Below, in pieces: positions 2,369 to 61,623 of a DNA stretch of 64,000 nt (its first letter is position 1; the number at the start of each line of letters is the position of its first letter). The translations under genes were made by a program, and so were the position numbers. The stretch spans positions 1 to 64,000 of the forward strand of contig JBCCCR010000004.1 in the NCBI GenBank assembly GCA_039033415.1, given 5' to 3'. This DNA comes from Pseudomonadota bacterium (lineage in GTDB: Bacteria > Pseudomonadota > Gammaproteobacteria > Xanthomonadales > SZUA-38). The notes below the pieces were generated by a model. That model searched no databases. It had not been told where the DNA came from and was given only the letters and a program-made list of their open reading frames with translations.

Positions 2369-3439
2369 TCACTCTTCAGGGTCGACAGTTCCGCGTTCCG
2401 GCGCAACGTCGCTGGGATTGAGGCCAAAGCGGCGCTTGAAGGCACGGGAAAAATGGGCAGCGCTGGAAAGACCCACGTGGTGAGCCAGGCTCTCCATCGA
2501 CGGCCTACGAATGCGGTCGTCCTCGAGGATCGATCGCGCCGCATCGAGACGCTTGCTCATGATCATTTCATGAACCGTCTGTGGCTCTTCGGCAAACAGC
2601 TTGTGCAGATACCGCACCGAGATATGCTGCGATTCAGCAACACGCTTGTTGTTGAGTCCCGGATCAAACAGGTTGTTGTCGATGAACTGACGCACGCGTC
2701 TGAGCAACGCCTCGCGCACGCAGTCGGTTTCCACCAGCTTGCTGGTGATGACCGAAGAGCTGAAGGTCAGCGCAATCATATTGACCAAGTTGTCTGAGAG
2801 CTGGTCGTTGATCGGCTCGTCCCGGCTACTCAACTCACCGACCAGGGAGTAAAGAAAATTCTTGAGGATAAGCCCCATCCCCTCATCGGCGGAAATCGGA
2901 ATAGCGGTGTATTTCTCGGGTTCCATAAGATGCCGCGAGAGAATCTCGCGGGGCATCTGCAGCACAAACTGGTGGAATGGTTTGGCAAACGCCAGCGAGT
3001 ATTCCGACGCGCTGTCGTAGAGCGCAAACGTCCCCGGCTTGAGCAGCGCCTCACGACCTGACTGGCTGACCACACACTCCCGCTCGAGCTGGAAGCTGAT
3101 CAGAAAGTCGTCTTTGGTCGCCCGGGCGATGCGCTGGCGCGACCGACGCACCAGCTGAGGCATGGCGATCACCTCAGAGAAATGAACCTGCCCAACGCCG
3201 ATACCACCTCGCAGCACACCGTCAAAATCACCGCGCTCCTGGCCCGGCACCTCGCTGCAGTCCAGATTCACAAACTCGTGGTTGACGACATCGCACCAGT
3301 ATTCCCAGCGCGACTTGCCTCGGAGGTCGCCGACGTCCCTCTGATAGCCGTTGCGGATCACAAACTTCATGGCATCGGGAATCCCGGTGTGACGGTTGCC
3401 GGACCCATCGTATGTCTGAAAGGCGCTGCTGACCACCAC
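2369..3439 (-). CDS. AraC/XylS-family regulator of nitrile metabolism
   Basis: A 356-residue regulator. The first ~220 residues form an AraC-binding-like sensor region (FDGVLRGGIGVGQVHFSEV, then GREALLKPGTFALYDSASEY). The C-terminal ~100 residues contain two helix-turn-helix units: NKRVAESQHISVRYLHKLF and MESLAHHVGLSSAAHFSRAF, with KRRFGLNPSD closing the domain. This resembles activators found beside nitrilase and aldoxime dehydratase genes, such as NitR/OxdR types. It is sandwiched in the operon, 5 bases after the nitrilase stop and 6 before the dehydratase start, implying tight co-expression and probable autoregulation. The inducer is probably an aldoxime, nitrile or acid (inference). Confidence 0.88.
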   Translation of the reverse strand: MVVSSAFQTYDGSGNRHTGIPDAMKFVIRNGYQRDVGDLRGKSRWEYWCDVVNHEFVNLDCSEVPGQERGDFDGVLRGGIGVGQVHFSEVIAMPQLVRRSRQRIARATKDDFLISFQLERECVVSQSGREALLKPGTFALYDSASEYSLAFAKPFHQFVLQMPREILSRHLMEPEKYTAIPISADEGMGLILKNFLYSLVGELSSRDEPINDQLSDNLVNMIALTFSSSVITSKLVETDCVREALLRRVRQFIDNNLFDPGLNNKRVAESQHISVRYLHKLFAEEPQTVHEMIMSKRLDAARSILEDDRIRRPSMESLAHHVGLSSAAHFSRAFKRRFGLNPSDVAPERGTVDPEE

Positions 3440-3444
3440 AACGC

Positions 3445-4482
3445 TCAGGAGGCGGCGGCTTCGACGCCGTCCTCAGCATGGATGTCTTCGGAACCTTCCG
3501 GGGGTGGCGTGGCAGCCGTCGGCGTCGACGCCATCGCTCGCGCCGGCGTCTGTGCCTGACGATTCCACAGCAGCGCGGTGGCGTCAGGTCGGGAGTAGTG
3601 CCCCACCGGGTCCGCAAAACATTTGGCGATCGTAATTGCCCCCAGATCGATCTCCGCAACCACCAGCCCTTCCGCCTCCGGGTCCAGCGTCTCTCCGAGC
3701 GGCGCCCCGTCGGGGCCAAAGATCCGCGCATAGCCACCACCCTTCTGAATCAGCGCGGCGTGTGTTTCGTTCTCCACCAGCAGGTCGATCATCTCCTGAG
3801 AGATGACGCCGCAGGGCGCAACCACAAAACACTGTCCTTCAGCGGCATACATCTGCGACGCGGCGTTGTTCAGCACCGGACCCAAGGAGTAGGCGTCGGG
3901 ATACATGCTGAACGAGGGCCAGGCGGCCACGTGAATCTGTTCGTGCAGACTGAACATCGCGTAGCGGCTCAGCGGCTGGAGGTGCTCCCAGCACGCCAGC
4001 TGGCCGACGATGCCGATATCGGTTTCAGCCACCTTCAGATCCGACCCGTCGCCGTCGCCGTAAACGGTTCGCTCAACGTGGGTTGGCTTAAGCTTGCGCC
4101 GAGCGCTGAGCGTCTCGCCGTCGCGCCCGAAGAGAAACTGGGCGATATACAGCGACCCGTGGTCGCGTTCACTCGCACCAATCGACACGTAGATATTGTG
4201 GTCGCGGGCACAGCGAGCGATGGCCCGATACGCCTCGCTGTCCGGCACCAGCGAGTTTTCGTGATATTGGCCAAAATACTTCATGTTCAGCGCAGGGGCG
4301 TTCAGCCAGATAAACCACGGATAGCCCGGAATCCAGGTCTCGGGGAAGGCGACCAGATCGCAGCCCTGCTCCGCCGCGCTCTTGATCAGGCCACAGGTTT
4401 TTTCCACGGTGGCCGACAAGTCCATGAAAACCGGTGCCGCCTGCACCGCCGCTACCTTACAGTTCGAAGATGTGTCACCCAT
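3445..4482 (-). CDS. nitrilase
   Basis: A 345-residue carbon-nitrogen hydrolase that converts a nitrile to a carboxylic acid and ammonia. The catalytic triad is visible: Glu48 in LVAFPETWIPGYP, Lys130/Lys132 in RRKLKPTHVERTVYGDGDG, and Cys164 in GQLACWEHLQP. The CWEHLQP context is that of true nitrilases rather than amidases. The start at 4482 lies only 8 bases from the end of the 268-bp inverted-repeat element and lacks a clear ribosome site. The element therefore supplies almost all of its leader. It heads the operon with the AraC regulator and aldoxime dehydratase, which together give aldoxime to nitrile to acid. Arylaceto- versus aliphatic preference cannot be assigned. Confidence 0.93.
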   Translation of the reverse strand: MGDTSSNCKVAAVQAAPVFMDLSATVEKTCGLIKSAAEQGCDLVAFPETWIPGYPWFIWLNAPALNMKYFGQYHENSLVPDSEAYRAIARCARDHNIYVSIGASERDHGSLYIAQFLFGRDGETLSARRKLKPTHVERTVYGDGDGSDLKVAETDIGIVGQLACWEHLQPLSRYAMFSLHEQIHVAAWPSFSMYPDAYSLGPVLNNAASQMYAAEGQCFVVAPCGVISQEMIDLLVENETHAALIQKGGGYARIFGPDGAPLGETLDPEAEGLVVAEIDLGAITIAKCFADPVGHYSRPDATALLWNRQAQTPARAMASTPTAATPPPEGSEDIHAEDGVEAAAS

Positions 4483-46583: not shown

Positions 46584-49500
46584 TTAGTCCTCTAGCGGCG
46601 CGCAGTCCTGGCCGAACGTGCGCTGGGAACTGCTGATCAGCAGCTCCGCGGCGGCAACCCCGCACCCGACGTCCTGCCTTGAACCGTTCAGCCGCGCCCG
46701 GCCTCGGCGCGCGATCATGTAACCGCCGATTTCGGTCCGTGACGCGGAGAAACGGATCGCGTTGCTGCTGAAAATATTGGTGAAAAAGGCCAGGTCGTCG
46801 ACAAACGGCGTGATCTTGTGCCGTGAGCCGGTTATCCGGATGTTGTCGTTAGATACGATGGTCACGTTGGCCTCAACGCGAGAACCCTCGACAAACACAT
46901 CGCACGGCACCCAGTACAGCCCAGGTGCGGCGTTTCGCTTGAGCCGCCACCAGCCCCAACGATTGCACTCGTGGGTCATGTCGTGGAAGTCATCGCCCAG
47001 CGCTTCGGCCACCGCACCACCGGGTCGATAGTCACCAATTTTGTAGCTGAACGGCCATGGCGCGCGGTCGACCTGCTCGGGCTCCACGGCAAACTCCTGC
47101 CGTCGGCCCCGAACGATCAAGCGATCCGCATAGCGGGTGGGACCGTTGATCGTTTTGTCCGAACCGGTGATGCGGATGTCGCTGTTGCTGTGCATCAGGC
47201 CTTCCACCGTGCCCGAACCACCGCTCCAGTCGATGCCCCAGCTCCAACGGTCCTGTGCCCACAAGCCGACCGGCCCGATCACGTTGATCTCCAGCGTCTT
47301 GCTTTGCTCGAACTCGGTGCCAAAGCTGGCCGTCACTACGACCGCGATGTCGGCGTTGGCCTCCTCGTACTCATGCTCAGCGACAAACGTCAGCGTTTCG
47401 TTATCCTCCGTTAGGTCGAGCGTTTCGCTTGTGCCGTCACCCCAGTCGACAGTGACGGTTTCCGTGAAATCACCTAGGTCCGTGATCACACCGGAGATCT
47501 CCAGCGGAGTCCCGACCGCAATCGTTTCGTCGGACGCTTCAACCTCAAGCGGCTCGACCACAAAGTATGAGTTGGTCTGGGACGTTGGCGCGTTGCCAGC
47601 AAAGTCGGTCGATGTGACCGTAAACGTCTGGGTACCAACACTTGCTGCGGGTACCGGCTGGCCGGATGCCACCGGTCCTAAGCAGCTCGCGGGTCCCGAA
47701 CCGGAGTCCAGGCACTCGTAGTCGGCGGCAACGTCGCCACCCACCTCAAAGAACTGCCCATCCGCCGGCGATGCGATCACCACGCCGGGCGACACCGTGT
47801 CGATCAACACGTTGAAGGTGACGGCGTTGTCGCCGCCCACTTCCCGTACGCTGACGAAGTGCACACCCTCGCCGGCTACGGCGATGTCACCCGTCAGCGG
47901 CTGGAAGTTCGGCGAATCGACGGCAAACTCATACGCCACGCCGGGCGCCTGGTTGGTCACGCTCACGATCACCGGCTGGCTGCGGCTCCACTCACCGGGA
48001 TTCACGTCGACACCGTTGGTGTCCTCCAGATCAATGCCGAAGGTGCCGTTGTTGCCGCCTCCTGGAGGTGGCGGCAGCGGCGTCTGTTCCGCCACGTAGA
48101 ACGTCCCCTTGAACGTGCTGTTGGCAACATTGCCGCCGCTGTCCAGGGCCTGGACGAGATAGTCCACTTCGCCGTTGATCAGGCCGCTGTTGTTGACGGC
48201 GCCTCCGCCGGTCCAGGTGCTGGTGCTGCCGCTTTGGACAAGATCTTCCAGAACCCAGGTCGAGTTCACGCCGTCGAAAGACTGCCGATACAGGACCGCT
48301 ACCCGCGTAACCACACCGGGTGAAGCGTCGGTCGCCTCGACGGTAAAGGCCGCCTGGAAACCGCTGCCGGCCTGGACAACGCTAGCGTTGATGTTGTCCA
48401 GCTCCGGACGGATATCGTCACCGCCACTGTTTTTGGCCGCCGCATTCTTCAGCGCCGTCACCGGCGCCGGCTGATAGAAGACCTGCACGTCGACACTTTC
48501 AAAGATCCGCTGCGTGCCGAAGTCTTCACCGGCGTTGGACGTGTACTGGCCGGTGATGATGTTCAGCTGCTGCCGATCCTCGAACGGGCCGGGATCAGCC
48601 GGCACCCTATAGCCAACCACGTTGGTGAAGCTGGTTGGGAACACGACCTCGTCGGTTTCGATTTCCGGTTCGAGCGCCCCCTCATCAATCACCGGTCGGG
48701 CGAAGGCCATATCGGGCACAATCTCGTCCCGGGTCGTTAGACCCGTGATGAACGCGCTGCGCGCTACCTCACCCGGATTGTCGCTGGTCACGTCGACGCC
48801 GATGATCGGCTGCAGAGGTCGGTAGTGGACAAACTGCACGTCACCCTCAACCGTCGCGCCTTCGGCGCTGTAGAGCCGGCCTTTGTCGGTGTTGACGAAG
48901 TCGACGTCGTAGTCGAGCGGTGAGGCCAGGCTGATCGAGGCTGAAGCCAGACCGGAGATCGGGTCGTTCAGCGTCGGACGCAGCGTCGGCAAAGGCTCAT
49001 CGATCGGCGTCGGATTCTGAATCTGATACATCGGCAGGCCGAAGTAGACTGACGCCTGCAGCGCCTTGTAGTCGTACTCACCGTACACGCCCAGGTCACT
49101 GAAGTACTCCTGCTTGGCAAAGGCGTGAGCCTGGCCGGCGGTGACGTTGCCATTGAGATTGCGGGCAAAGTTCGCCAACAGGCGTTCGGTGAGCGCCAGC
49201 GCCACCGTATCACCCAGACCGTAAGCCGCCTGGCCGACGTAAACCGCGCCAAGGCTGTTCAGCGTCTGCGACCAGTCCTGTGATGACTGCGTGGACGGCA
49301 CCGAAATATCGGCGACGTTGATGCCCGAGTGGCAGCCCACCGTGAACCAGACACGGCCCGTGAGATCGTTGCCGGTCAGGTCACCCACGTTGATCAGGTT
49401 GGTCGAGTAGTTCCCGGATGCATCACCGCTGGAGGGCAGCGCCTCGTCATAGTCAAAGTGCATGTTGAACGACACGACGTCTCTGGCGGTGTTGTTGGTC

Positions 49501-52500
49501 AAACCCGCGGCCGTCAGGAAGTCCACCCGATCCCAGGGATCAGCGGCGTTGGGAAAGTCGATCAGCGGCGTCGACTCCAGCCCGTAGCTTCCGAACGTCT
49601 GCTGGATATCGGTCGACGCATCGGCGATGAAGTCATAGCCGGCTGACAGCGCCGTCGTCGGCGTCAGCACGCCACCGGACAGCACGTAGTTTTCCGCTGC
49701 CGTCTGAATGTCCTCCGCGGACTCCACCAGTCGACCGACCGCCAGCTCCGGCACGTTCAGGAAGCGGTTGAACCAGCGAACCGGGTCGATGTCGCCGTAG
49801 GTGTCGTCCGACAGGAAGTTTCGGTTGATCATCGAGCCAAACAGCGCGTTGTCGGCAAACGTGGTGGCAAAGGTGGACTCGTTGGCGATCGCCGTCTCGT
49901 CACCCTTACGCTGGAACGGAATCACCTCGTCTGAACCCACGATGGTCACGTAGGCGAGCTGCGGGGAGGTCGCCCGCCGCTGTTCCAGGTAGGCGGTAAT
50001 CGCGTTGACCACGCTGTTGGCGGCGTCCACGTCGCACGGATCCAGATCCCAGGCCGCGTAGTTCACGCCGGCGATGGTGGACACGTCCACCACAACACCG
50101 TCGACGATACCCGGAGCGCTGACCAAGGCATTGATCGCCGCAAGCGCTTCGTCTGCCGCGGCGGCACCGCCGCCGTTCAGCGCTTCTTCGCTCTGCGCCA
50201 GGCGCTGCCAGTTCACCAGGAACACCGCGTTGGTCGCCGGCGTCCAGCTGCCGGCGGCGGCCCAGGTCTGCGGACCGGTAGCGGTTCCCGGCCAGGTTCG
50301 GGACGGACACTGCGTCACCGGCACCTCCGGCGTGACCTTGATCCGGAGGGTATACGGATCGTCAGACACCGAGCCGTTGTAGCCCGATACCTGGATGGTG
50401 AACGGATCGCCGTCGGAGATCGCTGAGACCTCCTCGTCATTGTTGTCCCGGTTGGTCGACAGAGACGACAGCGGTAGGACACCGATGTTGATGTCTTCCA
50501 GCGAATCCGGTTCCTCCGTCTGGTTGCCGGCGAAGTTGATGCCGTCATCCTCAAACGGAATGGAGTCGAGCGACGCGGCTTCCACCAGCTGCCCTTTTGC
50601 CTCGATAGCCGACAGGGGCTCGTAAAGGAGCAGATCGTTGTCGCCGGTCGGGTTGCTCATGAAGACCGTGACTCGGCTGCCGCTGGGCGGCGCGCCGATG
50701 CGGAAGTAATCGTTGTCATCTGGCGTGCTGATGTGGCCGAGGATGAGCTGATCCGGATCGGGGGTTGGCGGGAAATTGATGTTGTCCGACTCGTTGATGA
50801 AGCTCGGCACCACTTCCACAGCCGCCGCGGTGGCGTCGGCCGTGGCGGCGGGCAGGCCGCCTAGGTCCAGGCTGGCCTCGGCGGGAAAGTCGCCCAGCGT
50901 CAGCGGCGGCACGGCCACAAACTGCAGCGTGTTGTCGCTGAAGGCGCCGGGATCCACCGGGCCGAAACTCATGGTGACCGTGCCCTCCCCCGCGTTGGGC
51001 GTCATGAGCGGATCAGGCACCGGCGACATCATCGTGCTGCCGCCGCCCTGGCTCTGGGTCATGAACTGCGTTGAGCCCGGCACCAGGTAGAACTGGTCCG
51101 ACACGGTCACGTTCACCGTCACCGGCTCGACCAGCGTGCCGTTGAGCTCGAAGTCGACGGCGTAGCCAATAAAGTTGTCCGCCGCAAATTCCTGCGGGTT
51201 TAGCTCCGACAGCGAGAGGTTTTCCCACGGGAAGTCGGAACGCAGCACGAGCGATATCAGCAGCTGGCCGAAAGTCAGGTTGCCCGGATTGGCCACCTCA
51301 CCGAGGGTCTCCGGGTCACCCGGCTCGATGCCAAAGAGATACTCCAGCGTGAAGGCGTCGAGCAGTTCGCCATAGAGGATGTCGCCGAACTGCGGCGAGG
51401 GGAAAAACGACGACAGGGGTGCGTCCGCAATCACCTGGCCGGCGACAAACGCGTCGCCAACGGTGTTGCAGCCTTCGCAGGCGACGCCGTCGATCAGGAA
51501 CGACGACAGCGGGAATGATGACAGCGGCAGCGACGACAGCGGGAACGACGACAGCGGGAAGGACGACAGCGGCGTCGCGGCAAACGTCGACTCGCCGGCC
51601 GCCAGCAGCGCCGTGATCAGCTCACCGAAATCGGATCCATTGTTCACACCCAGGTCACCGCAGGTGGCCTGTCCCTCAGCGAGCGCGGCCGTGTCGTAAT
51701 AGTCGCAGAACAGCTGGCCACCCACGTCGAACGACGACAGCGGGAACGAGGACAGCGGGAACGACGACAGCGGCGCACCGGCCACGTCCGCAAAGTCGAG
51801 CTGAAATGACGACAAGGGAACGTTGGCGATGTCGAATGACGACAGCGGGAACGACGACAGTGGCGTCGCCGCCAGCGACGTGGTGCCGAGATCCCTAAGC
51901 GCGGATACCAGGTCCAGCAGGCCGGCGGTCGAAGGATCGATACCCAAATCGGTGCAGGTCGGCTGGCTGTCCGCCTGCGCCAGCGCGTTATAGAAGTCGC
52001 AGAACGGCTCACCGCCCACTTCAAATGACGACAGCGGCAGCGACGACAGCGGGAACGACGACAGCGGGAATGACGACAGCGGCGCGGCCAGCAGGTCGAA
52101 CGACGACAGCGGGAACGACGACAAGGGGAATGACGATAACGGGAACGACGACAGCGGCAGCGACGATAACGGGAACGACGACAGCGGGAATGACGACAGC
52201 GGGAACGACGACAGCGGCAGTGACGACAGCGGGAACGACGACAGCGGCGCTTCGGTGATGCCGAACGATGACAGCGGGAACGACGACAGCGGCAGGCTGG
52301 ACAGCGGCAGTGAAGACAGCGGCGCGCCCCGAACCTGCAGACTGACGACAGTGTCGCTGCTCTGGCAGTCGGTAAACCCATCACCGGCCAGAGCGCCACA
52401 AACCGAGGCGCTGCTGCCGGCGTTGTTCAGCCATTCATCGAGGATCCCCACGGTGATTTCATCGCCGAGGGTCAAGCCAGCCAGCGACAGTGAAGACAGC

Positions 52501-55500
52501 GGCGACTGCTGAATCGCCAGCGATCCCAGCGTGATGTTATCCAGCAGATCAGACGGCGCGTCGGGCGCTTCCAGCACCTGCTGCAGCGTGATGTTCTGCA
52601 GCGGCGCGCCGGCCAGCGACGGCACCTGCTCAATCACCTCTGCCCAGCCGCCCGGCTCGCTCAGGAGCGGGAACGACGACAAGGGGAATGACGACAGCGG
52701 GGCCCCGGTGACGGCAAACGACGATAGGGGAAACGACGACAGCGGGAAGGACGACAGCGGTGACGCCTGCAGGTCCAGCGACGACAGCGGGAACGATGAC
52801 AGCGGGAACGACGACAGCGGTGCCGCTTCTGGCGGGTTCGCGTTGTCACCCACCACACCCGTGAGCGTTTCGATCGGGATATCGATCAGCGGGATGTTCT
52901 CGACACCCGGCTGGGTGACGCTGGTTGTGACGCTCAGCAGCGCGTTGTCGATGGTGGCGGGAATCGCAGATCCTTCAAAGGCTCCAATGTCACAATCCGG
53001 GCCTTCGGGGCGATTGACGCCGCGCTGGTCGACCAATTCACATTTTGTCTCGTTTTCAAACAGGAAGTTGGAGATGCGCTGTTCACCGCCGATGCCCGTC
53101 AGGACGCTGGCCGCGCCGGTAAAGCCAACAAACACGTCGCCGTCGGCATTCACGTCGGCCAGCGACAGGATGTCGACCGTTGCCGACACGTTAGGCAGCG
53201 CTGGCCTGGTCACGGTCAGACCCGACTGTTCAGCCAGCCTGACTTCGAGCAGGTTGGTATCGGCGTCGTAGTCCAGCCAAACGTTCCAGCGGTTGCCGCT
53301 GGACAGGACGCCGCGACTGCCAAAGTACTGAACCGCAATGCTGTCCATGCTGCCGTTGACGTTGATGCCGACGTGGTCCTCATCGAGCTCGTTGGCGCCG
53401 ACACCCTCACCGTTCAGCCAGGTATCAAACTCGACGGAAACGCCCGGCACCTGAGGACCAGCGGGCTGGTAGCCGGGCTGGCCGAGGTCGTCGAACGAGC
53501 CGATACCCAGCGCGCCGCCGCCATCGGTGAGCAGCGTCGGATCATCGGTAAAGGTAATGGTTAGGCCGTCAGCCGCGTTCCCCCCTGAACCGGGGACAAT
53601 GCGGAAGGAGAACAGGGCCTCGAAGTCAGAAGTCACGTCCACCGGGTTGGTCAGGTAGGCAGAACCAACGGTTCCGCCGGCATTGGAACCGGCAAGCAGG
53701 ATTTCGTTGCCAGGCTGCAACGGCGACTGATTGTCGACCAGCGTGGTTGAACCCCGGGTCGTAAAATCCGCCAGGTCGGGGAAATCGAAGAACACCACCT
53801 CGGATGGCCCACCGGCGTCCTGCGCCGGGCTGCCGGGCAGCAGCGCATGGGTTTCCGTAGGACCACCGTTGTCGGCGAGCAGGCCAATCAGCGGGTCGCC
53901 GATGAGGTCGTTCGGCGCCAGGATCTGGCACGGATTGACGTCATAGATGTTGAAACCGCCTGACAGCACCTGGTCGCAGTCGCTTGTCACACCCGTATTG
54001 CCGGAGAACAGGCTGTTGCGGAAATTCAGCGGGCCCTGCCCGATCTCGGCATAGAGCGCTCCGGCATCGGGCGCCGTATTAAACGCGAAGGTCACGTTGT
54101 TCACGTTGGCGCTGCCGCCGGCAAACACGGCAACCGCACCGCCGTCACCGGTGTTACCCGGACCGGGATTTACGACGTTCCCGCTGAGCGTGCTGTTGGA
54201 GAGGTTCAGCGTGCCCGTCGAGGCAACGGCGCCGCCGCGTGGCTCAACGCCCGGGTCAGTCACCGAGTTGGAGACCAGGGTTGAACGCGCAACGGAAAGG
54301 ATGCCCTCGTTGTAGATGGCGCCACCGTCTCCCGAGTTCGATCCGCTGATGGTGGAGTCAGCCAGGATCAGCTCCAGCGTCGCTGCGCTATAGATTGCGC
54401 CGCCTTGACCTGCACCGTCGCCTGCTTCAGTCGCCTGGTTGTTGATGAACTGCGTGTCTTCAATGAGCCCGATGACCCCGCGGAACTCCAGCGCACCGCC
54501 TTGGCCGGAAAAGCTCAGCCCGCCTTCGCCAACCGTATTGCCGACCAGGAGACCATCAAAGAGCTGCATCTGGCCCGTGCCCGGAGCATCCAGCGAAATC
54601 GCGCCACCGGCGCTTCGAGCCGTATTGGTCTCGAAGACGTCGGTGTTCGACACCAGCGTCGATGCAAAAATGGCGCCGCCATTAACCGTCGTGGAGTTGT
54701 TTCTGAAGGTGTTGTCAGTTGAGTTCAGCGTGCCCAGTGGGGACCGGATCGCACCGCCCGGTCCAAAAGGCGCTGCGTTGGTGAGGAACGATGAGTTGGT
54801 GATCGTGGCGCCGAGCACAAGGTTGATCGCGCCGCCGCCGCCGCCCGCATCGTTGGCCTCAAAGGTGGTGTCGTTGATGGTCGCTGGGCCGCCGGCGATA
54901 TTGATGGCCCCACCTTGCCCGCTATTAGGATCGGCAGAGTTCAGATTCATGAATCCGCAGTCCATGTTCAGACTGCTGGCCAGCGACTCCTGGTGGATGC
55001 CTCCACCGTTGACCGCCGAGTTGTCGGAGAACTGCGTGTACGTCACCGTGAGCGCAGCCTGAGTCCAGAGCCCGCCACCGTTGCCGTTCACAGCCTGGTT
55101 GTTGGAAATAAAGTTGGTCCCCTGGCCCACCGGGGCCGGAATCGTGCAGGCCGGCGCACCAATCCGCAGCGTCGACGCCTGCGAGTAGATACCCCCGCCG
55201 TCGTTGACAGCAATGTTGTTGGCGATGGTGGTGTTGTTGATGACCACCGTCTGGCTGCCGTCGAGGTAAATGCCGCCACCATTGGTCCCGGCAGAGTTGC
55301 TGAGAATTTCGCTGTTCGTCAGCGTCAAATTGCTGCTCGACTCAACAAAGATTCCGCCGCCGACTACGCCGGCGCTGTTGTTGTCGATCCGAACGTTGTC
55401 GAGCACTACGTCGAGAAACGGACTCTGGATGTCGATGCCGGCACCCTGGCCGGCAAAGTTTGCACCGGTCACGCGAATGCCGGTCATGGTGAAGCTCTCG

Positions 55501-57419
55501 GTGGCAAACACGCCCTGCGTGCCCAGCCCGGTGACGTCGATGACAACATTGTCCGGCCCGGAACCCTGCAGCGTGATGCCGCTGTTGGCGAGCGTAATGG
55601 ACTCGGTGTAGATACCGTCGGGGACCACTACGGTCCCGCCCGGCGCCGCCGCATCGACTAATGCCTGCAGGGGACCAACACTCGGCTGCAGCTCAAACGC
55701 ACCCGCGTCGCAGGCGTTCAGCTGCGGCCGGGACACACCGCGCTGGTCGGTTGTAGTCCCGGTGCCGCCGCAGGTCGGATCGTTCAGACCGGAGTCGACC
55801 GCTGGGCTGGACGGATCCAGCGCCCGGGTAAAGGTCGGTCCACCGTTATCTTGCAGCGGGCCCAGCAGTGGTTCCAGAGGCGAGGCGGGGGTTCCCCACT
55901 GGTCACCCACCGCCTGGAGCGCGCCGCAGTTAAGATCGCTGCGCAGGATGTTGTAGCCAGCAGACACGATACTTGTGCTGTCGCCGAGGCAATTCTGGCC
56001 ACCCTGGTTAAACGCCAGCAGGCTGTTGCTGATGGTGGCGATGCCGCTGACGGGACCCACTTCGCCCCAAAGGCCGGTGCGGTAGTTGTTGGAAATCGTG
56101 CTGAGAGTGGCGTTGACCGTGTATGGCGTTCCAGAGCCCCTCTGCACTGCGATGGCGCCAACGCCGACGCTGTCAGACAGCGTGACGTTGAGCATATCAA
56201 TGGCACCTCGGGAGTAAACGCCGCCGATGGTGGCGATGCCGCCGAAGACCTGAAACTCAAGATCGAAACTTCCCGTCGTTTCGGTGCAGCGATAACCCGC
56301 GCCGTCAGGATAGGAATCGAGAGAATTCACGATGAAAGATCGCGATCCGGGAAAGTTCATTTCTACGGCGTAGGTTGCGCCCACGGCAACGCTGATGGGC
56401 GCATCCAGCGTAAAGTCCAGATCGAGATTGGTGCCTGAAGGCGTTCCCTGGGGAATCAGGGCGCTTGCGTTGGCAATGACCGGACCGGTAGGTCCGCCGC
56501 TGCGCACAAAGCCGGTTACCGGGATATCGGTAGCAACTACGCCAGTATTTCCCACCGCATTCAGAAAGCGGAACCCTGACAGCGCCTCCTGCGTCGCCAC
56601 AAAGGTCTGGCCGACAAAACCGCGTTGGAGGGTTGGACTGAAGCAGCTGCTCCCCGGGAGATCGGGGTTGCCATAGTTATCAACGGCCAGGATGGGGTTG
56701 ACGCCGGCGTTACGGATAATCGCCGAGTCGACGATATTGATGGCGCCGTCGGAGGTCGCGGCCACGGAACCGCCAGCCGGGCTGCGTGACCAGTTCTGAT
56801 CGACGTTCACACGGGTCAGGTTGAGGACGGAGGTGATGCCCTCGGACAGCACCGCTGCGCCCTCGCCGTCGGTGCTGTTCCGAATAAACTCGGTGTCGGT
56901 CACGTTGACGGTCGCATTAACGCTCGCCAGACCACCCCCGGCCGCTTGGGCAGTGTTGTTTTCCAGCCGCGAACCGTTCAGGTCGAGGCTGGCGTCCTGC
57001 ACTAAGATCCCGCCACCCAGATCAGCGCCGACCACCAGGCCGTTGATCACCACAACGTCGTTGATAGTGGCAACCGTGCTGGCATTAATCACCGCAATGC
57101 CGCGATCGCCATCGGCGTCTACCAGCGAGTCGTTGAAGTCAAGCGTCAGGCTACGGTCGACCAACAGCGGCGTAGTCAGTACATAGGTGTCATTGAGTAT
57201 GTTCAGCGTATCGCCCGCAACAACGGTGCCATTGTCCGCGAGGGCTGCCTCCGGCGAATCGTAGTCACACGACGCTGGGTTGGTCGGTGGACACACCGTA
57301 TGGGTTGTTTGGGCTTGCACACCAACGCTTAGGGAAAGCAGCAGCAAGGCTAAGGGAGAAAGTACCAGGAGTCGTCCACACAGGGAGACTCCACGACCAG
57401 AAAGACCGCGGTTACGCAT
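46584..57419 (-). CDS. giant exported multidomain protein: beta-helix, lectin, PLSSF repeats, caspase-like domain
   Basis: 3,611 residues from the ATG at 57419 (AAGGA eight bases upstream); GTG 57446 is an alternative. Order: signal peptide 1-37; beta-helix I ending DQRGVSRPQLNACDAGAFE (~575); beta-helix II (~585-1205); L-lectin-like insert (~1205-1458) before DQRGVNRPEGPDCDIGAFE; PLSSF repeats with inserts (~1530-2003); beta-sandwich; PPC-like region (~2200-2370); C25/caspase-like domain (~2375-2810) with His2654 in NMHFDYDE and Cys2696 in VGCHSG; Ig/PKD domains (~3000-3385); C-terminal repeats with SNSDIRITGS and SNDNIRITGS. It is probably surface-bound or secreted. Neither protease activity nor export route is proven. 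A terminator follows. Confidence 0.92.
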   Translation of the reverse strand: MRNRGLSGRGVSLCGRLLVLSPLALLLLSLSVGVQAQTTHTVCPPTNPASCDYDSPEAALADNGTVVAGDTLNILNDTYVLTTPLLVDRSLTLDFNDSLVDADGDRGIAVINASTVATINDVVVINGLVVGADLGGGILVQDASLDLNGSRLENNTAQAAGGGLASVNATVNVTDTEFIRNSTDGEGAAVLSEGITSVLNLTRVNVDQNWSRSPAGGSVAATSDGAINIVDSAIIRNAGVNPILAVDNYGNPDLPGSSCFSPTLQRGFVGQTFVATQEALSGFRFLNAVGNTGVVATDIPVTGFVRSGGPTGPVIANASALIPQGTPSGTNLDLDFTLDAPISVAVGATYAVEMNFPGSRSFIVNSLDSYPDGAGYRCTETTGSFDLEFQVFGGIATIGGVYSRGAIDMLNVTLSDSVGVGAIAVQRGSGTPYTVNATLSTISNNYRTGLWGEVGPVSGIATISNSLLAFNQGGQNCLGDSTSIVSAGYNILRSDLNCGALQAVGDQWGTPASPLEPLLGPLQDNGGPTFTRALDPSSPAVDSGLNDPTCGGTGTTTDQRGVSRPQLNACDAGAFELQPSVGPLQALVDAAAPGGTVVVPDGIYTESITLANSGITLQGSGPDNVVIDVTGLGTQGVFATESFTMTGIRVTGANFAGQGAGIDIQSPFLDVVLDNVRIDNNSAGVVGGGIFVESSSNLTLTNSEILSNSAGTNGGGIYLDGSQTVVINNTTIANNIAVNDGGGIYSQASTLRIGAPACTIPAPVGQGTNFISNNQAVNGNGGGLWTQAALTVTYTQFSDNSAVNGGGIHQESLASSLNMDCGFMNLNSADPNSGQGGAINIAGGPATINDTTFEANDAGGGGGAINLVLGATITNSSFLTNAAPFGPGGAIRSPLGTLNSTDNTFRNNSTTVNGGAIFASTLVSNTDVFETNTARSAGGAISLDAPGTGQMQLFDGLLVGNTVGEGGLSFSGQGGALEFRGVIGLIEDTQFINNQATEAGDGAGQGGAIYSAATLELILADSTISGSNSGDGGAIYNEGILSVARSTLVSNSVTDPGVEPRGGAVASTGTLNLSNSTLSGNVVNPGPGNTGDGGAVAVFAGGSANVNNVTFAFNTAPDAGALYAEIGQGPLNFRNSLFSGNTGVTSDCDQVLSGGFNIYDVNPCQILAPNDLIGDPLIGLLADNGGPTETHALLPGSPAQDAGGPSEVVFFDFPDLADFTTRGSTTLVDNQSPLQPGNEILLAGSNAGGTVGSAYLTNPVDVTSDFEALFSFRIVPGSGGNAADGLTITFTDDPTLLTDGGGALGIGSFDDLGQPGYQPAGPQVPGVSVEFDTWLNGEGVGANELDEDHVGINVNGSMDSIAVQYFGSRGVLSSGNRWNVWLDYDADTNLLEVRLAEQSGLTVTRPALPNVSATVDILSLADVNADGDVFVGFTGAASVLTGIGGEQRISNFLFENETKCELVDQRGVNRPEGPDCDIGAFEGSAIPATIDNALLSVTTSVTQPGVENIPLIDIPIETLTGVVGDNANPPEAAPLSSFPLSSFPLSSLDLQASPLSSFPLSSFPLSSFAVTGAPLSSFPLSSFPLLSEPGGWAEVIEQVPSLAGAPLQNITLQQVLEAPDAPSDLLDNITLGSLAIQQSPLSSLSLAGLTLGDEITVGILDEWLNNAGSSASVCGALAGDGFTDCQSSDTVVSLQVRGAPLSSLPLSSLPLSSFPLSSFGITEAPLSSFPLSSLPLSSFPLSSFPLSSFPLSSLPLSSFPLSSFPLSSFPLSSFDLLAAPLSSFPLSSFPLSSLPLSSFEVGGEPFCDFYNALAQADSQPTCTDLGIDPSTAGLLDLVSALRDLGTTSLAATPLSSFPLSSFDIANVPLSSFQLDFADVAGAPLSSFPLSSFPLSSFDVGGQLFCDYYDTAALAEGQATCGDLGVNNGSDFGELITALLAAGESTFAATPLSSFPLSSFPLSSLPLSSFPLSSFLIDGVACEGCNTVGDAFVAGQVIADAPLSSFFPSPQFGDILYGELLDAFTLEYLFGIEPGDPETLGEVANPGNLTFGQLLISLVLRSDFPWENLSLSELNPQEFAADNFIGYAVDFELNGTLVEPVTVNVTVSDQFYLVPGSTQFMTQSQGGGSTMMSPVPDPLMTPNAGEGTVTMSFGPVDPGAFSDNTLQFVAVPPLTLGDFPAEASLDLGGLPAATADATAAAVEVVPSFINESDNINFPPTPDPDQLILGHISTPDDNDYFRIGAPPSGSRVTVFMSNPTGDNDLLLYEPLSAIEAKGQLVEAASLDSIPFEDDGINFAGNQTEEPDSLEDINIGVLPLSSLSTNRDNNDEEVSAISDGDPFTIQVSGYNGSVSDDPYTLRIKVTPEVPVTQCPSRTWPGTATGPQTWAAAGSWTPATNAVFLVNWQRLAQSEEALNGGGAAAADEALAAINALVSAPGIVDGVVVDVSTIAGVNYAAWDLDPCDVDAANSVVNAITAYLEQRRATSPQLAYVTIVGSDEVIPFQRKGDETAIANESTFATTFADNALFGSMINRNFLSDDTYGDIDPVRWFNRFLNVPELAVGRLVESAEDIQTAAENYVLSGGVLTPTTALSAGYDFIADASTDIQQTFGSYGLESTPLIDFPNAADPWDRVDFLTAAGLTNNTARDVVSFNMHFDYDEALPSSGDASGNYSTNLINVGDLTGNDLTGRVWFTVGCHSGINVADISVPSTQSSQDWSQTLNSLGAVYVGQAAYGLGDTVALALTERLLANFARNLNGNVTAGQAHAFAKQEYFSDLGVYGEYDYKALQASVYFGLPMYQIQNPTPIDEPLPTLRPTLNDPISGLASASISLASPLDYDVDFVNTDKGRLYSAEGATVEGDVQFVHYRPLQPIIGVDVTSDNPGEVARSAFITGLTTRDEIVPDMAFARPVIDEGALEPEIETDEVVFPTSFTNVVGYRVPADPGPFEDRQQLNIITGQYTSNAGEDFGTQRIFESVDVQVFYQPAPVTALKNAAAKNSGGDDIRPELDNINASVVQAGSGFQAAFTVEATDASPGVVTRVAVLYRQSFDGVNSTWVLEDLVQSGSTSTWTGGGAVNNSGLINGEVDYLVQALDSGGNVANSTFKGTFYVAEQTPLPPPPGGGNNGTFGIDLEDTNGVDVNPGEWSRSQPVIVSVTNQAPGVAYEFAVDSPNFQPLTGDIAVAGEGVHFVSVREVGGDNAVTFNVLIDTVSPGVVIASPADGQFFEVGGDVAADYECLDSGSGPASCLGPVASGQPVPAASVGTQTFTVTSTDFAGNAPTSQTNSYFVVEPLEVEASDETIAVGTPLEISGVITDLGDFTETVTVDWGDGTSETLDLTEDNETLTFVAEHEYEEANADIAVVVTASFGTEFEQSKTLEINVIGPVGLWAQDRWSWGIDWSGGSGTVEGLMHSNSDIRITGSDKTINGPTRYADRLIVRGRRQEFAVEPEQVDRAPWPFSYKIGDYRPGGAVAEALGDDFHDMTHECNRWGWWRLKRNAAPGLYWVPCDVFVEGSRVEANVTIVSNDNIRITGSRHKITPFVDDLAFFTNIFSSNAIRFSASRTEIGGYMIARRGRARLNGSRQDVGCGVAAAELLISSSQRTFGQDCAPLED
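51405..52830 (-). repeat. 15-bp tandem coding repeat (PLSSF pentapeptide array)
   Basis: About 39 copies of P-L-S-S-(F/L), each encoded by a 15-bp unit close to CCGCTGTCGTCGTTC, lie in four blocks (about 52669-52830, 52030-52325, 51733-51875 and 51495-51580) plus isolated copies. Odd units (DLQAS, AVTGA, GITEA, DLLAA, DIANV, QLDFA, DVAGA) are also five residues, so the phase is kept. Blocks are separated by inserts with paired cysteines. The array is part of the giant gene reading frame. Confidence 0.95.
53040..53805 (-). other. L-type lectin-like insertion in beta-helix anchor motif
   Basis: Within the giant gene, the sequence leaves the usual beta-helix end (LLPGSPAQDAGG) and returns at CELVDQRGVNRP about 255 residues later. 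The insert has legume-lectin features: ADGLTITFTDDPT, a Ca/sugar-site-like VSVEFDTWLNGEG, DHVGINVNG and WNVWLDYDADTNLLEV. In the first beta-helix copy the same junction is uninterrupted. Confidence 0.75.
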
Positions 57420-57471
57420 GACGAACATCCTTTCGTTGACCCACACAACGCCAGCTCAAACCGGGTTTCTT

Positions 57472-57489: not shown

Positions 57490-57555
57490 GGTGAACCTCT
57501 TCTTTGAAATGTTTGGCAGCCTGTGAATTATCCCTCGTGGCACGGTGCTGCCCGG

Positions 57556-57561
57556 TATACT
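57556..57561 (+). promoter_or_regulatory. possible -10 element for hybrid regulator gene
   Basis: TATACT at 57556-57561 is a good sigma-70 -10 match, 48 bases before the ATG at 57610. No convincing -35 is seen at the proper spacing, which would suit an activator-dependent promoter. Confidence 0.35.
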
Positions 57562-57609
57562 CCACGTTGCGATCATTCAACGGGAGGTTGCATACGCTGC
57601 GCACACGCC

Positions 57610-60600
57610 ATGGACCGGCTCGCCTTATTCATACTGTTCCTGCTGCTCCTGGCATCAAACGCCTGGTCTCAGGAATCTTTCCTGAAACAAGAGCACTGGC
57701 TGCTCGACCAGTTCGATGTGGACGACGGCCTGCCGGTGAACGGCGTCAACGCGCTCGCCTGGGGGCCCGAGGGTTATCTTTGGATTGCCACCTTTGATGG
57801 GCTGGCGCGGTTCGACGGTGAGCAGTTTGTTGTTTTCGATCGAGCCTCCAATCCGGAGCTGCCCGGCAATCGACTTGTGCGCATGCTCTGGTCTCACGGC
57901 TACCTGTGGATAGTGACGGCGGACCAGCGGCTGGTACGCATGACTTCACCCGGCCAGTTCGAGCTGGTGGACGAATCGCTGGGCTTACCCCACCCACAGG
58001 TCGGGCGGCTGCTGGCAACCGATCGGGCCCTCTATGTCGGGACGCTGGCAGGCGTAGCCAAGCTGCGGTCGGACGGCACGTTCGAGCCGTTTGTCGAGTC
58101 GTTCACGGGCCCCGTCCAGTCGTTGGCTCACTGGCCCAACCAGGGACTGGCTGTGGGCACAAAAAATGGACAGCTGGTGTTGCTCAAGCAAGGCGAGCCA
58201 CCGCGCTCCCTGCCCATGCCCCAGGGGCTCGGGCGCGTCAGCAGCCTGGCCTATTTCGAAGGCCTGATGGCGGTTGGTGCGTCCGGCGGCGCCGCGCTGC
58301 TGGACCGCACCGGCATCCAGAATTTTTACGCCTTGAAACAGGGCCCCATGGAGTCGGTGCGTGTCATCGCGGCCGAAGATCGCCTGCTCGCATTTGCCTA
58401 CCCAAACCAGCTCCGCTGGCAGGAAGGGCGCTGGGTACGGACCGGATCGATGCCGCGGCACCCGATCGATGCCGGCTCGATGGTCGTGAAGAGCGCTGAC
58501 GGCGCCTGGTGGAACAACCACCTGTATGAGCTAGAGCGAAACGGTCAAACGGTTTTTCAAACCGACAGCATCATCAGCGATTTTGTTACCTCCTCGGACG
58601 GCCACGCATGGATTGCGACCAACGGGGCGGGGCTTTTCCGCCTGCGGCCGCGACCGGTGTTGAACGTCGGCCAGGAACAGGGCCTGATCAACGACAACCT
58701 CTACGCCGTCACCCAGGAAAACGACAAGCTGCTGGCGGGTAGCGTAGACCCGGTGGCGTACCAGGTGTCGCTGGCTGGCCCGACAGCTGTCGTCGAACCA
58801 CTTGAAGCTGAGGATGGCTACTACACCTTTCTAACCGATAGCCAAGGCAACCGCTGGCGCGCTGGCGCCCGCATCTGCGTGGTCGCGCAGGGGCAGGACG
58901 ACTGTCGAAATATTGATTCCCTGACCAACGTCCAGCGCCACCAGTTCGTTTACGCGTTGCTGGAAGATTCGAAGGGCAACATCTGGGTTGGTGCAGAGCA
59001 ATCGTTAGCCCTGAGAGATAAAACGAACCTCTGGAGACTGGTCGAACTGCCGTGGGTAAAGCTGGAGGTGGGCTTTCGCACTGGCCTAGAAACACCCGAC
59101 GGCACGGTCTGGTTCGGCAGCAGCGGCGGCGGGATTGTGCTGTTTGATGAGGGTGTGGCAACACGCGTGATCGACAGCAGCGCCGGTCTGTCATCCAATC
59201 GCATCCGGTCTTTGTATTTTGACGCTGAGAGCAACTCGGTTTGGGCCGGCACCGAAGATGGCGGCATCTGCCGCATTCGGAGCTGGCAATCCGCGCCCGA
59301 CATACGCTGTATCTCCACCCGGCAGGGACTGTGGAGCGACGGCGTGCACAAGATGCTCGACGACAGCCAGGGCAGGCTTTGGATGTCCAGCAATGACGGC
59401 CTCTTCTACGCCCCAACAAGCTCCCTGAATGCGGTGGCTGACGGCACGGCCGACTGGGTGCTCGGCATGGCGTTCGATGAAAGTGACGGCATGGCTAACC
59501 GGGAGGCCAACGGCGGCGGCCAAAGTGCCGGTCTCAAAACCGACGACGGCTGGCTTTGGTTTCCGACCCAGGAAGGTCTTGCCGGCATTATACCCGCCAA
59601 CGTGGCGGCGCCCTCAGATACCCGGGTTCGAATCGACGGCATCATCTATGAGTCGGTGCCGCAGCAGGCCACCCGAACTTTTGAAGTGCAGCCGGAAAAC
59701 CGAAACCTGGAAGTCCGCTATTCCACCGCCAGCTTTGGCAATCGGAAACGTATCCGCTATCGCTATCGGCTGGGCGGTTCGGGCAGCGCCTGGCTCGACG
59801 CCGGGCAGCGGACCTTCGCCAGCCTCACGTCCCTGCCGGCGGGCACAATCGTCTTTGAGGTGGAAGCCAGCGGCGAAGACGGGGGCTGGTCAGGACAGCG
59901 TGACCGGCTAACTCTGCAGGTTCTGCCCCACCTTCATGAGACGCTCGGCTTCCGGATCTTCCTGGCGCTGCTGGCGACCAGCCTGATTCTGACCGCCGCC
60001 TGGTGGCGAATCCGGCAGCTCAGCATGCGGCAACGAGAGCTCCAGCTCGCCGTCGATGAACGGACGAGCGAGCTGTCCAAGGCGGTTGATCAGATCAGCC
60101 GGCAGAAAGACGAAATCGAAGCCAGCGCCAAGTCACGGACCCGGCTCTTCGGCAGTATCAGCCATGAGCTTCGAACGCCGCTGTCGCTGATTCTCGGTCC
60201 GCTGGAGGAGCGGTCGCGGAGGCGACGGCCGGTGACGGCGGAAGATGAGTCAATGATGCTGCGCAACGCGCGCAGGCTGAGCCGGATGGTTGACCAGATT
60301 CTTGATCTGGAACGAGTGGAGTCTGGGGTGATGGCGCTCAATCTTGAGCCGGTCAGCTGCGGCGCGCTGGTTCGGGCCGTTGCTGAGCCATTCTCTCAGC
60401 TGGCCGCCGACAAATGTCTGGCTTGGAAACTGGACATATCCAATGGATGCCCCGTGCTGGGTGACCGCGAGCAGCTGGAAAAGGTGTTTTCCAATCTGTT
60501 TTCCAACGCCGTGAAATACACGCCAAAAGGCGGCCAGATTCAGGTTACTTGTAGAACCAGCGATGGCAGGGTCTTGATCTCAGTCGAGGACTCCGGGCCC

Positions 60601-61623
60601 GGCATCGCCAAGCGCGACCGAGCCGAAGCTTTTGCTCGTTTTTCTCGACTCAAGCGCGACGCTCACGAGCCGGGGACCGGCATCGGCCTCTCCTTAGTCC
60701 AGGAACTGGTCGAGCTGCATCAGGGGTTGGTCAGCATCAAGACCAGTGAAGCCCTGGGCGGTGCAATGCTCCTGCTGGATTTCCCCGCCGTAGAAGCCTT
60801 TAGCGAGCCGCCCGCTGCCCCGAACGGACAGCGCAAGGCCCTGGTCGTGGACGACAATCCGGATTTTCGAACCTACGTCGCCTCCATTCTCGACGAGAGT
60901 TTTGTCGTGCTGCAGGCCGCCGGCGGCGTAGAGGGTCTCAAGCTGGCCCGAGAGGAGCTGCCCGATGTCCTGGTGACGGATGTCATGATGCCTGACCTGG
61001 ACGGCATGGCCATGGTCGCTGAGCTGCGTCAGGGAGGTGACGAGGCGGCGATTCCGGTGGTGTTTCTGACTGCTCGGGGCGGCGCGAACGATGAGATCGC
61101 GGCCCTGGCGGCTGGCGGGGATCAGTTTCTGGCCAAACCTTTTGACAGCGAGGTTCTGCTGGCCCGCGTCAACGCGGTGATGGCCAGTGCAGACCGAGTT
61201 CGGGTTCGAGCGCTGCCGACGTGTCCTGAGTGTGGGCAGGAAACCAAACCCGAGGCGCGACCCGAACTGGAGCAACGCATTCGCGGCATTGTCATGGAGC
61301 ATCTGGACGACCCCGAGCTCAGCGTCAGCAGTATCGCGTCGGCCCTGGGGATGAGTCGATCCAACCTGTTTCGCCAGGTGAAAAGCGAGCTGCAGACGAC
61401 GCCCACGCTGCTCATTCGACGCATTCGGCTGGAAGCCGCCCGCGCATGGCTGGACGACATGGATCTATCGATCTCGGAAATTGGCTACGGCGCGGGTTTC
61501 TCTTCGCTCTCCAGCTTCGGGCGGGCGTTTCGAGAGCAGTATGGGATCAGCGCGTCCGCCTACCGCCAACGCCAGTCGGCACCGCGCGCTGAAGCGGAAG
61601 AAGCCGATGCCGGGACGGTGTAA
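57610..61623 (+). CDS. hybrid two-component regulator (propeller sensor, kinase, receiver, AraC HTH)
   Basis: 1,337 residues from the ATG at 57610, whose signal sequence is LALFILFLLLLASNAWS. A periplasmic two-propeller sensor (~20-690; units such as LWIATFDGLARFDG and IWVGAEQSLALRD) leads to a Y_Y_Y domain, a membrane helix (~785-805) and a coiled coil. HisKA has ISHELRTPLSLIL with His852, and the ATPase GTGIGLSLVQE. The receiver has VTDVMMPDLDG with Asp1124, and an AraC helix-turn-helix ends the protein. Such one-protein systems control polysaccharide or surface-protein genes. It is divergent from the giant gene, its likely target (inference). Confidence 0.94.
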   Translation: MDRLALFILFLLLLASNAWSQESFLKQEHWLLDQFDVDDGLPVNGVNALAWGPEGYLWIATFDGLARFDGEQFVVFDRASNPELPGNRLVRMLWSHGYLWIVTADQRLVRMTSPGQFELVDESLGLPHPQVGRLLATDRALYVGTLAGVAKLRSDGTFEPFVESFTGPVQSLAHWPNQGLAVGTKNGQLVLLKQGEPPRSLPMPQGLGRVSSLAYFEGLMAVGASGGAALLDRTGIQNFYALKQGPMESVRVIAAEDRLLAFAYPNQLRWQEGRWVRTGSMPRHPIDAGSMVVKSADGAWWNNHLYELERNGQTVFQTDSIISDFVTSSDGHAWIATNGAGLFRLRPRPVLNVGQEQGLINDNLYAVTQENDKLLAGSVDPVAYQVSLAGPTAVVEPLEAEDGYYTFLTDSQGNRWRAGARICVVAQGQDDCRNIDSLTNVQRHQFVYALLEDSKGNIWVGAEQSLALRDKTNLWRLVELPWVKLEVGFRTGLETPDGTVWFGSSGGGIVLFDEGVATRVIDSSAGLSSNRIRSLYFDAESNSVWAGTEDGGICRIRSWQSAPDIRCISTRQGLWSDGVHKMLDDSQGRLWMSSNDGLFYAPTSSLNAVADGTADWVLGMAFDESDGMANREANGGGQSAGLKTDDGWLWFPTQEGLAGIIPANVAAPSDTRVRIDGIIYESVPQQATRTFEVQPENRNLEVRYSTASFGNRKRIRYRYRLGGSGSAWLDAGQRTFASLTSLPAGTIVFEVEASGEDGGWSGQRDRLTLQVLPHLHETLGFRIFLALLATSLILTAAWWRIRQLSMRQRELQLAVDERTSELSKAVDQISRQKDEIEASAKSRTRLFGSISHELRTPLSLILGPLEERSRRRRPVTAEDESMMLRNARRLSRMVDQILDLERVESGVMALNLEPVSCGALVRAVAEPFSQLAADKCLAWKLDISNGCPVLGDREQLEKVFSNLFSNAVKYTPKGGQIQVTCRTSDGRVLISVEDSGPGIAKRDRAEAFARFSRLKRDAHEPGTGIGLSLVQELVELHQGLVSIKTSEALGGAMLLLDFPAVEAFSEPPAAPNGQRKALVVDDNPDFRTYVASILDESFVVLQAAGGVEGLKLAREELPDVLVTDVMMPDLDGMAMVAELRQGGDEAAIPVVFLTARGGANDEIAALAAGGDQFLAKPFDSEVLLARVNAVMASADRVRVRALPTCPECGQETKPEARPELEQRIRGIVMEHLDDPELSVSSIASALGMSRSNLFRQVKSELQTTPTLLIRRIRLEAARAWLDDMDLSISEIGYGAGFSSLSSFGRAFREQYGISASAYRQRQSAPRAEAEEADAGTV

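Follow-up and report, generated by a model that had tools for sequence, protein, structure and literature searches.

In a 64-kb stretch of the Pseudomonadota contig JBCCCR010000004.1 (positions 1 to 64,000, hereafter the window), one gene codes for a giant, probably secreted protein in which 39 PLSSF or PLSSL pentapeptides precede a predicted C25 (gingipain-like) peptidase domain. Most homologues of this domain also have a near-perfect, short tandem array ahead of it. The letters of these arrays turn over while the period stays, and selection keeps the units identical to each other rather than holding particular letters. We tentatively propose that the array serves as the repeat module in a family of secreted C25 peptidases, in which the units would be equivalent, mutually matching contact elements that stack or condense and position the protease. 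A preliminary description of the DNA had taken the array for a possible novel solenoid class and had overlooked its main context, a C25 peptidase family with hypervariable arrays. Residue numbers below refer to the 3,620-residue protein and nucleotide positions to the window.

C25 peptidase homologues and their arrays

A first protein search for relatives yielded only spurious low-complexity matches outside the genus, and we used searches with the C25 domain instead. These gave ten named loci. In the phylum to which an Anaerolineales member belongs, 43 of 350 genomes had a match, as did 7 of 346 in that of an Acidimicrobiaceae member and 5 of the 398 genomes of the window's own order. Chloroflexota, Actinomycetota and Gammaproteobacteria are represented among the homologues. 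At first we met the identical array only within the genus (the congener of the window genome is a Lysobacterales metagenome-assembled genome), and later also in L111, which belongs to the same order but to a different family. The tree of the 44 C25 domains places that of the window beside the Acidimicrobiaceae domain L033 as its sister (100/97), inside a clade of Actinomycetota type; this placement and the few matching genomes in the window's order suggest horizontal transfer. Searches of plasmid records with the array and with the C25 domain gave no match, nor did a search of viral contigs.

Tested at the level of the family, the window protein appears to be a C25 peptidase. The PF01364 signature matched 23 of the 41 aligned members (best 8.9e-13); the window domain has no direct match to it and is 48% identical to that of L033 in the same alignment. 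The predicted His and Cys dyad is kept in 40 of 40 members where covered. In an AlphaFold2 model of the Herpetosiphon homologue L040 (41 sequences), the PPC and C25 domains fold well (predicted local distance difference test, pLDDT, 81; predicted template modelling score, pTM, 0.82). Its catalytic domain resembles those of the gingipains RgpB (Z 29.3 to 4ief and 28.2 to 1cvr) and Kgp (Z 24.7), the gingipain fold thus being seen on a homologue and not on the window protein. Its PPC domain has the fold of the collagenase s3b beta-sandwich (Z 16.0 to 5iku and 15.9 to 1nqd), and PF04151 matches 5 of 41 members, this evidence coming from homologues of the window protein. Comparison of C25 profiles with the PDB by sequence found no gingipain, and viral models yielded no useful match in a fold search. 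The C25 domain is predicted to be proteolytically active. Unlike gingipains, the present family comes from environmental bacteria, and to our knowledge a PPC domain and tandem array ahead of the catalytic domain is not an arrangement known from gingipains. In the PPC domain, in contrast to collagenase s3b, one hairpin is extended by up to ~115 residues of tandem array.

The arrays are usually located 67-220 residues before the C25 domain, and a few homologues lack them. One PPC hairpin is their usual location and probably the ancestral array site. Among the 44 proteins we counted 39 distinct units, including PLGAI, PFFGL, AWGEL, LPSGS, GGYDD, GNLNAI and GGQIASI, with periods of 5, 6 or 7 and rarely of 8 or longer. 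The period tracks the protease tree, with 4 changes compared with at least 10 in 500 shuffles. By contrast, close relatives differ in letters, as seen with PFFGL and AWGEL at 60% C25 identity, or with GNLNAI and GNLDAI, which are exchanged in every unit except one at 90%. Between the window and L033 the units change wholesale from PLSSF to PLGAI and the punctuation is retained (in block 1, DLQAS/DLDAS at unit 4 and AVTGA/DVSAN at unit 8). Period-5 units contain Pro in 14 of 18 cases and aromatics in 13 of 18, and period-6/7 units contain Ile in 14 of 17 and Gly in 15 of 17, the units in these counts not being phylogenetically independent. The family represents a natural experiment on short perfect repeats, in which a single structural site carries ~40 interchangeable arrays, their periods being 5, 6 or 7, and it offers protease scaffolds with exchangeable repeat modules. 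Literature searches for the exact repeat strings and for C25 domains with tandem repeats in Chloroflexi found no paper, most subscription journals being outside their reach.

Several Chloroflexota genomes harbour two to four C25 paralogues (L093, L101 and L102; G821, G1087, G1042 and G1066). Some of these differ in both period and letters, G1042 for instance having SPFKA (period 5) and GGSIGAI (period 7). In L097, a Trp/Met-rich ten-residue repeat, EMWTFPMWTW, occupies the PPC-loop position (residues 940-1000). In the Actinomycetota-type L090, a 12-residue array (GGDSIRLEAIGL) replaces the pentamer array at residues 400-470.

Selection on the sameness of units

The count of about 39 units given in the preliminary description was confirmed, and a 40th, PLSSL at residue 2325, lies beyond the interval that it had delimited. 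Its observation that the interruptions within blocks are all five residues long holds for the seven variants (Table 1). A selected five-residue register, which it had proposed, is supported inside the blocks only, because the inserts between blocks (e.g. 53, 52 and 26 residues) are not multiples of five. Orthologues differ by whole pentamers: a single indel of 35 residues, or seven pentamers, separates the arrays of the two congeners, and that of L111 shows an additional five-residue indel. The recurring Cys inserts are also borne out, with exactly eight Cys in the array, one pair per insert, and all four pairs kept in the alignment with the more distant L111. In the latter, residues 1848-1903 of a PLSSF block form a four-unit (60 bp) higher-order repeat, marked by AGT/TTG codons and by a PLSSL at intervals of 20 residues.

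The 40 units are one peptide spelled by 20 different DNA sequences, and their uniformity is therefore not due to chance; a pattern search showed the paired PLSS(F/L) unit to be confined to this gene. Over 28 arrays, the median ratio of nonsynonymous to synonymous differences between units (pN/pS) is 0.024, with deviating in-register units counted, and several arrays have zero nonsynonymous differences at pS 0.3-1.0; the selection of arrays by amino-acid similarity lowers pN and does not create high pS. Likewise, 22 LPSGS units have 21 spellings and 49 PLGAI units have 39. Given the high pS between units, recent duplication is therefore not the sole cause of their sameness.

Comparison between species escapes most of the bias of array recognition. 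Between the window and its congener, we found 37 synonymous differences and 1 nonsynonymous difference in the unit residues (neutral P ~1e-17), compared with 57 and 22 in the other array residues and 68 and 4 in the C25 domain. With L111, the unit residues are 96% identical and the C25 domain 83%. Leu2, Ser3 and Ser4 are the same in 39 of 39 aligned units despite several switches of Ser codons between TCN and AGT, and the differences are chiefly Phe/Leu exchanges at position 5. We conclude that selection acts on identity because the peptides are uniform despite diverged codons and because the letters change array-wide between relatives. Protein repeats have been reported (Persi et al. 2016, PMC5120217) to diverge faster between copies than between species, as a universal rule among living organisms. 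The present arrays run opposite to that pattern, with letter-identical copies over large synonymous divergence and whole arrays re-lettered between homologues.

Besides the PPC-hairpin site, the window lineage and its relatives of Actinomycetota type have an additional and larger array 300-500 residues upstream. In 4 of the 6 two-site proteins, the PPC-loop unit is the same as the upstream unit (PLSSL, PLGAI, GLRTF and PIRST), with no cross-match between proteins (permutation, 2/720). Direct contact between the sites or gene conversion would each explain this match.

Possible roles of the arrays

As identity is under selection and the letters are arbitrary, one and the same partner would be contacted by all units of an array. 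The other units are the simplest candidate, followed by the protein's own active site and then by a surface ligand. In the mechanism that we propose, units would stack or condense on each other, within a chain (including the lone unit of the PPC hairpin) or between molecules, and the resulting multivalent segment would space, anchor or concentrate the protease and the lectin/beta-helix part outside the cell. Several points weigh against this proposal. AlphaFold2 gave no array a confident structure, which is why stacking is something that we infer. A single external partner, such as a receptor, a surface polymer or a modifying enzyme, would equally select identical units, and self-association is hard to expect of very soluble units such as LPSGS and GGYDD. 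In addition, the two-site match comes from a small sample and could have arisen by gene conversion within the gene. We regard as more doubtful a general rule for extracellular repeat modules under selection for sameness, a homotypic sequence code by which units must match at one or two sites and letters change as a set. If true, it could let secreted proteases self-associate in a species-specific manner.

A regular right-handed, short-period beta-solenoid, close to what the preliminary description had envisaged, is conceivable but on balance unlikely. The PLSSF tract would then form a quadrilateral or two-pentamer coil with the Cys-pair/helix inserts as side loops, and period-6 relatives would form left-handed hexapeptide beta-helices. 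The strict register, the two hydrophobic positions per pentamer (L2 and F/L5) and the five-residue punctuation, often D-[LIV]-x-x-[ASTG], fit this idea. So do the four-unit (20-residue) DNA superperiod of L111 (z 3.2 at lag 4) and the weak score of a GSLTSI array with Hexapep PF00132 (20.1 bits, below the 27 cut-off). A precedent is the two-pentamer, ten-residue coil predicted by AlphaFold2 for the pentapeptide repeats of mycobacterial PPE proteins (PMC9663297). However, structure prediction of residues 1497-2400 (seven sequences) gave no confident fold (mean pLDDT 40.5, pTM 0.27), and the GNLNAI array of L040 was modelled as a loop of pLDDT <50 between two strands of the confidently folded PPC domain. 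When the repeats are perfect and the alignment is shallow, such a failure says little about disorder, and the window array may still be an ordered coil of short period. No 2- or 4-unit superperiod of variants was significant in the window, L031 or L033 arrays, and DNA lag analysis gave isolated signals only, in L111 and, at lag 8, in L071. Arrays of 3-6 units and letters like LPSGS would be hard to build as a coil, and no single pentapeptide solenoid fits the family because homologous arrays have period 6/7 or very soluble letters. A regular solenoid would nevertheless be compatible with the same evolutionary logic of unit sameness.

Pentapeptide-repeat proteins (PF00805 and its clan) share with the window array a five-residue register across many units. 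The array does not match their published consensus (PMC8145042), as had been noted earlier: its best rotation fits 3/5 positions, random 5-mers averaging 3.0, and it contains Pro and aromatics. Runs of at least eight contiguous pentapeptides are present by count only (10 and 20 in register). The PF00805, PF13599 and PF01469 profiles had no match at E 1 in the window or L033 arrays, pentapeptide profiles gave isolated weak matches in one homologue, and we obtained no credible Pfam match for the tract, in line with the preliminary description. Judged by its sequence, the array does not appear to belong to the pentapeptide-repeat family. Mycobacterial PPE repeats (PF01469; PMC9663297) also have a five-residue period in an extracellular protein, but their letters differ. 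Elastin-, silk- and extensin-like repeats also consist of short units that are letter-perfect and contain Pro, Gly, Ser and aromatics, the similarity being one of composition only (extensin E 0.15); in contrast with them, the present arrays are attached to a protease, with letters interchangeable among homologues. The fungal NLR repeats with high internal conservation (PMC12222747) are near-identical within one protein, but they are far longer folded units of intracellular immune receptors.

It is rather improbable that the array is a flexible, sequence-tolerant spacer between the adhesin-like N-terminus and the protease, for which only length and composition count. The low-pLDDT loops, variable copy number and low-complexity letters agree with such a role, yet tolerance predicts relaxed letters, whereas pN/pS is near zero and units match across two sites. 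Still less probable is a multi-copy recognition site (for cleavage, latency or inhibition) of the protein's own C25 active site, with letters that co-evolve with specificity. The position of the array, immediately before the catalytic domain, is that of the gingipain pro-region, and this explanation accounts for the identity of units, the turnover of letters and the match between two sites. The known gingipains cut after Arg or Lys. These residues occur in 4 of 18 period-5 units and 4 of 17 period-6/7 units, both under expectation, and self-cleavage with gingipain-like specificity is disfavoured because they are not enriched; forty sites per stalk also appear excessive. Neutral slippage and gene conversion with functionless letters is very improbable. 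In its favour, local duplications are clear in some arrays (eight identical DNA units in Herpetosiphon aurantiacus, runs in L094). In most arrays, however, the codons have diverged and the peptides have not, neighbouring units as a rule resemble each other no more than distant ones do, and the pN/pS values and the neutral P of the congener comparison largely refute it.

Layout of the giant gene and its surroundings

From N- to C-terminus, the protein comprises a beta-helix region, a legume-lectin-type domain, the PLSS(F/L) tract, an unnamed domain, a PPC-like domain (the one whose hairpin bears the array in other family members), the C25 domain and a variable C-terminus (Table 1). Its orthologues are 3,659 (L031/L032, same genus) and 3,731 (L111) residues long.

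Table 1. Features of the giant gene, with residue ranges of its product
Feature	Window position	Strand	Basis or remark
Open reading frame, giant protein, predicted secreted	46584..57446	-	3,620 residues; GTG start, alternatively ATG at residue 10
Likely signal peptide, 10-45	57312..57419	-	LLLLSLSVGVQA, followed by QTT; read from sequence by eye
Beta-helix/choice-of-anchor-Q and POMP-repeat region, 46-1225	53772..57311	-	NF041518 6e-40, PF02415, TIGR01376
Legume-lectin-type domain, 1233-1447	53106..53750	-	PF00139 1.6e-21 (segment scan)
PLSS(F/L) array, 1543-2014	51405..52820	-	39 units
Block 1, 10 pentamers	52671..52820	-	DLQAS is unit 4, AVTGA unit 8
Insert A, 1593-1708	52323..52670	-	One PLSSL; Cys 1683/1694; aligned among relatives
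Block 2, 20 pentamers	52023..52322	-	GITEA and DLLAA inside
Insert B, 53 residues	51864..52022	-	FCDFY...TCTDLG; Cys 1816/1831
Block 3, 9 pentamers	51729..51863	-	DIANV, QLDFA and DVAGA inside
Insert C, 52 residues	51573..51728	-	FCDYY...TCGDLG; Cys 1914/1929
Block 4, 5 pentamers	51498..51572	-	12 pentamers in L031
Insert D, 26 residues	51420..51497	-	ACEGC; Cys 1990/1993; final array unit next, 51405-51419
Intervening domain, 2015-2240	50727..51404	-	No fold named; conserved in Actinomycetota-type members by alignment
PPC-like beta-sandwich, 2240-2395	50262..50729	-	Alignments; L040 fold like collagenase s3b, Z 16
Lone PLSSL unit, PPC hairpin, 2325-2329	50460..50474	-	Letters equal upstream array
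C25 (gingipain-like) peptidase domain, 2406-2812	49011..50231	-	Predicted catalytic His 2663 and Cys 2705; family alignments

The C-terminal ~400 residues (3201-3620; window 46587-47846) are replaced between congeners. From about residue 3200, nucleotide identity falls from ~93% to 58-78%, and the remaining protein is highly conserved; by sequence, this module looks like it was recombined or swapped. Two long open reading frames in other frames, at 51644-52399 (251 residues) and 52531-53271 (246 residues), have mirrored repeats and are by-products of the array with no evidence of being genes. The divergently oriented neighbour (57523-61623) codes for a giant hybrid two-component regulator with a Reg_prop propeller and Y_Y_Y, HisKA, HATPase, receiver and AraC-type HTH domains, and it possibly regulates the secreted protein.

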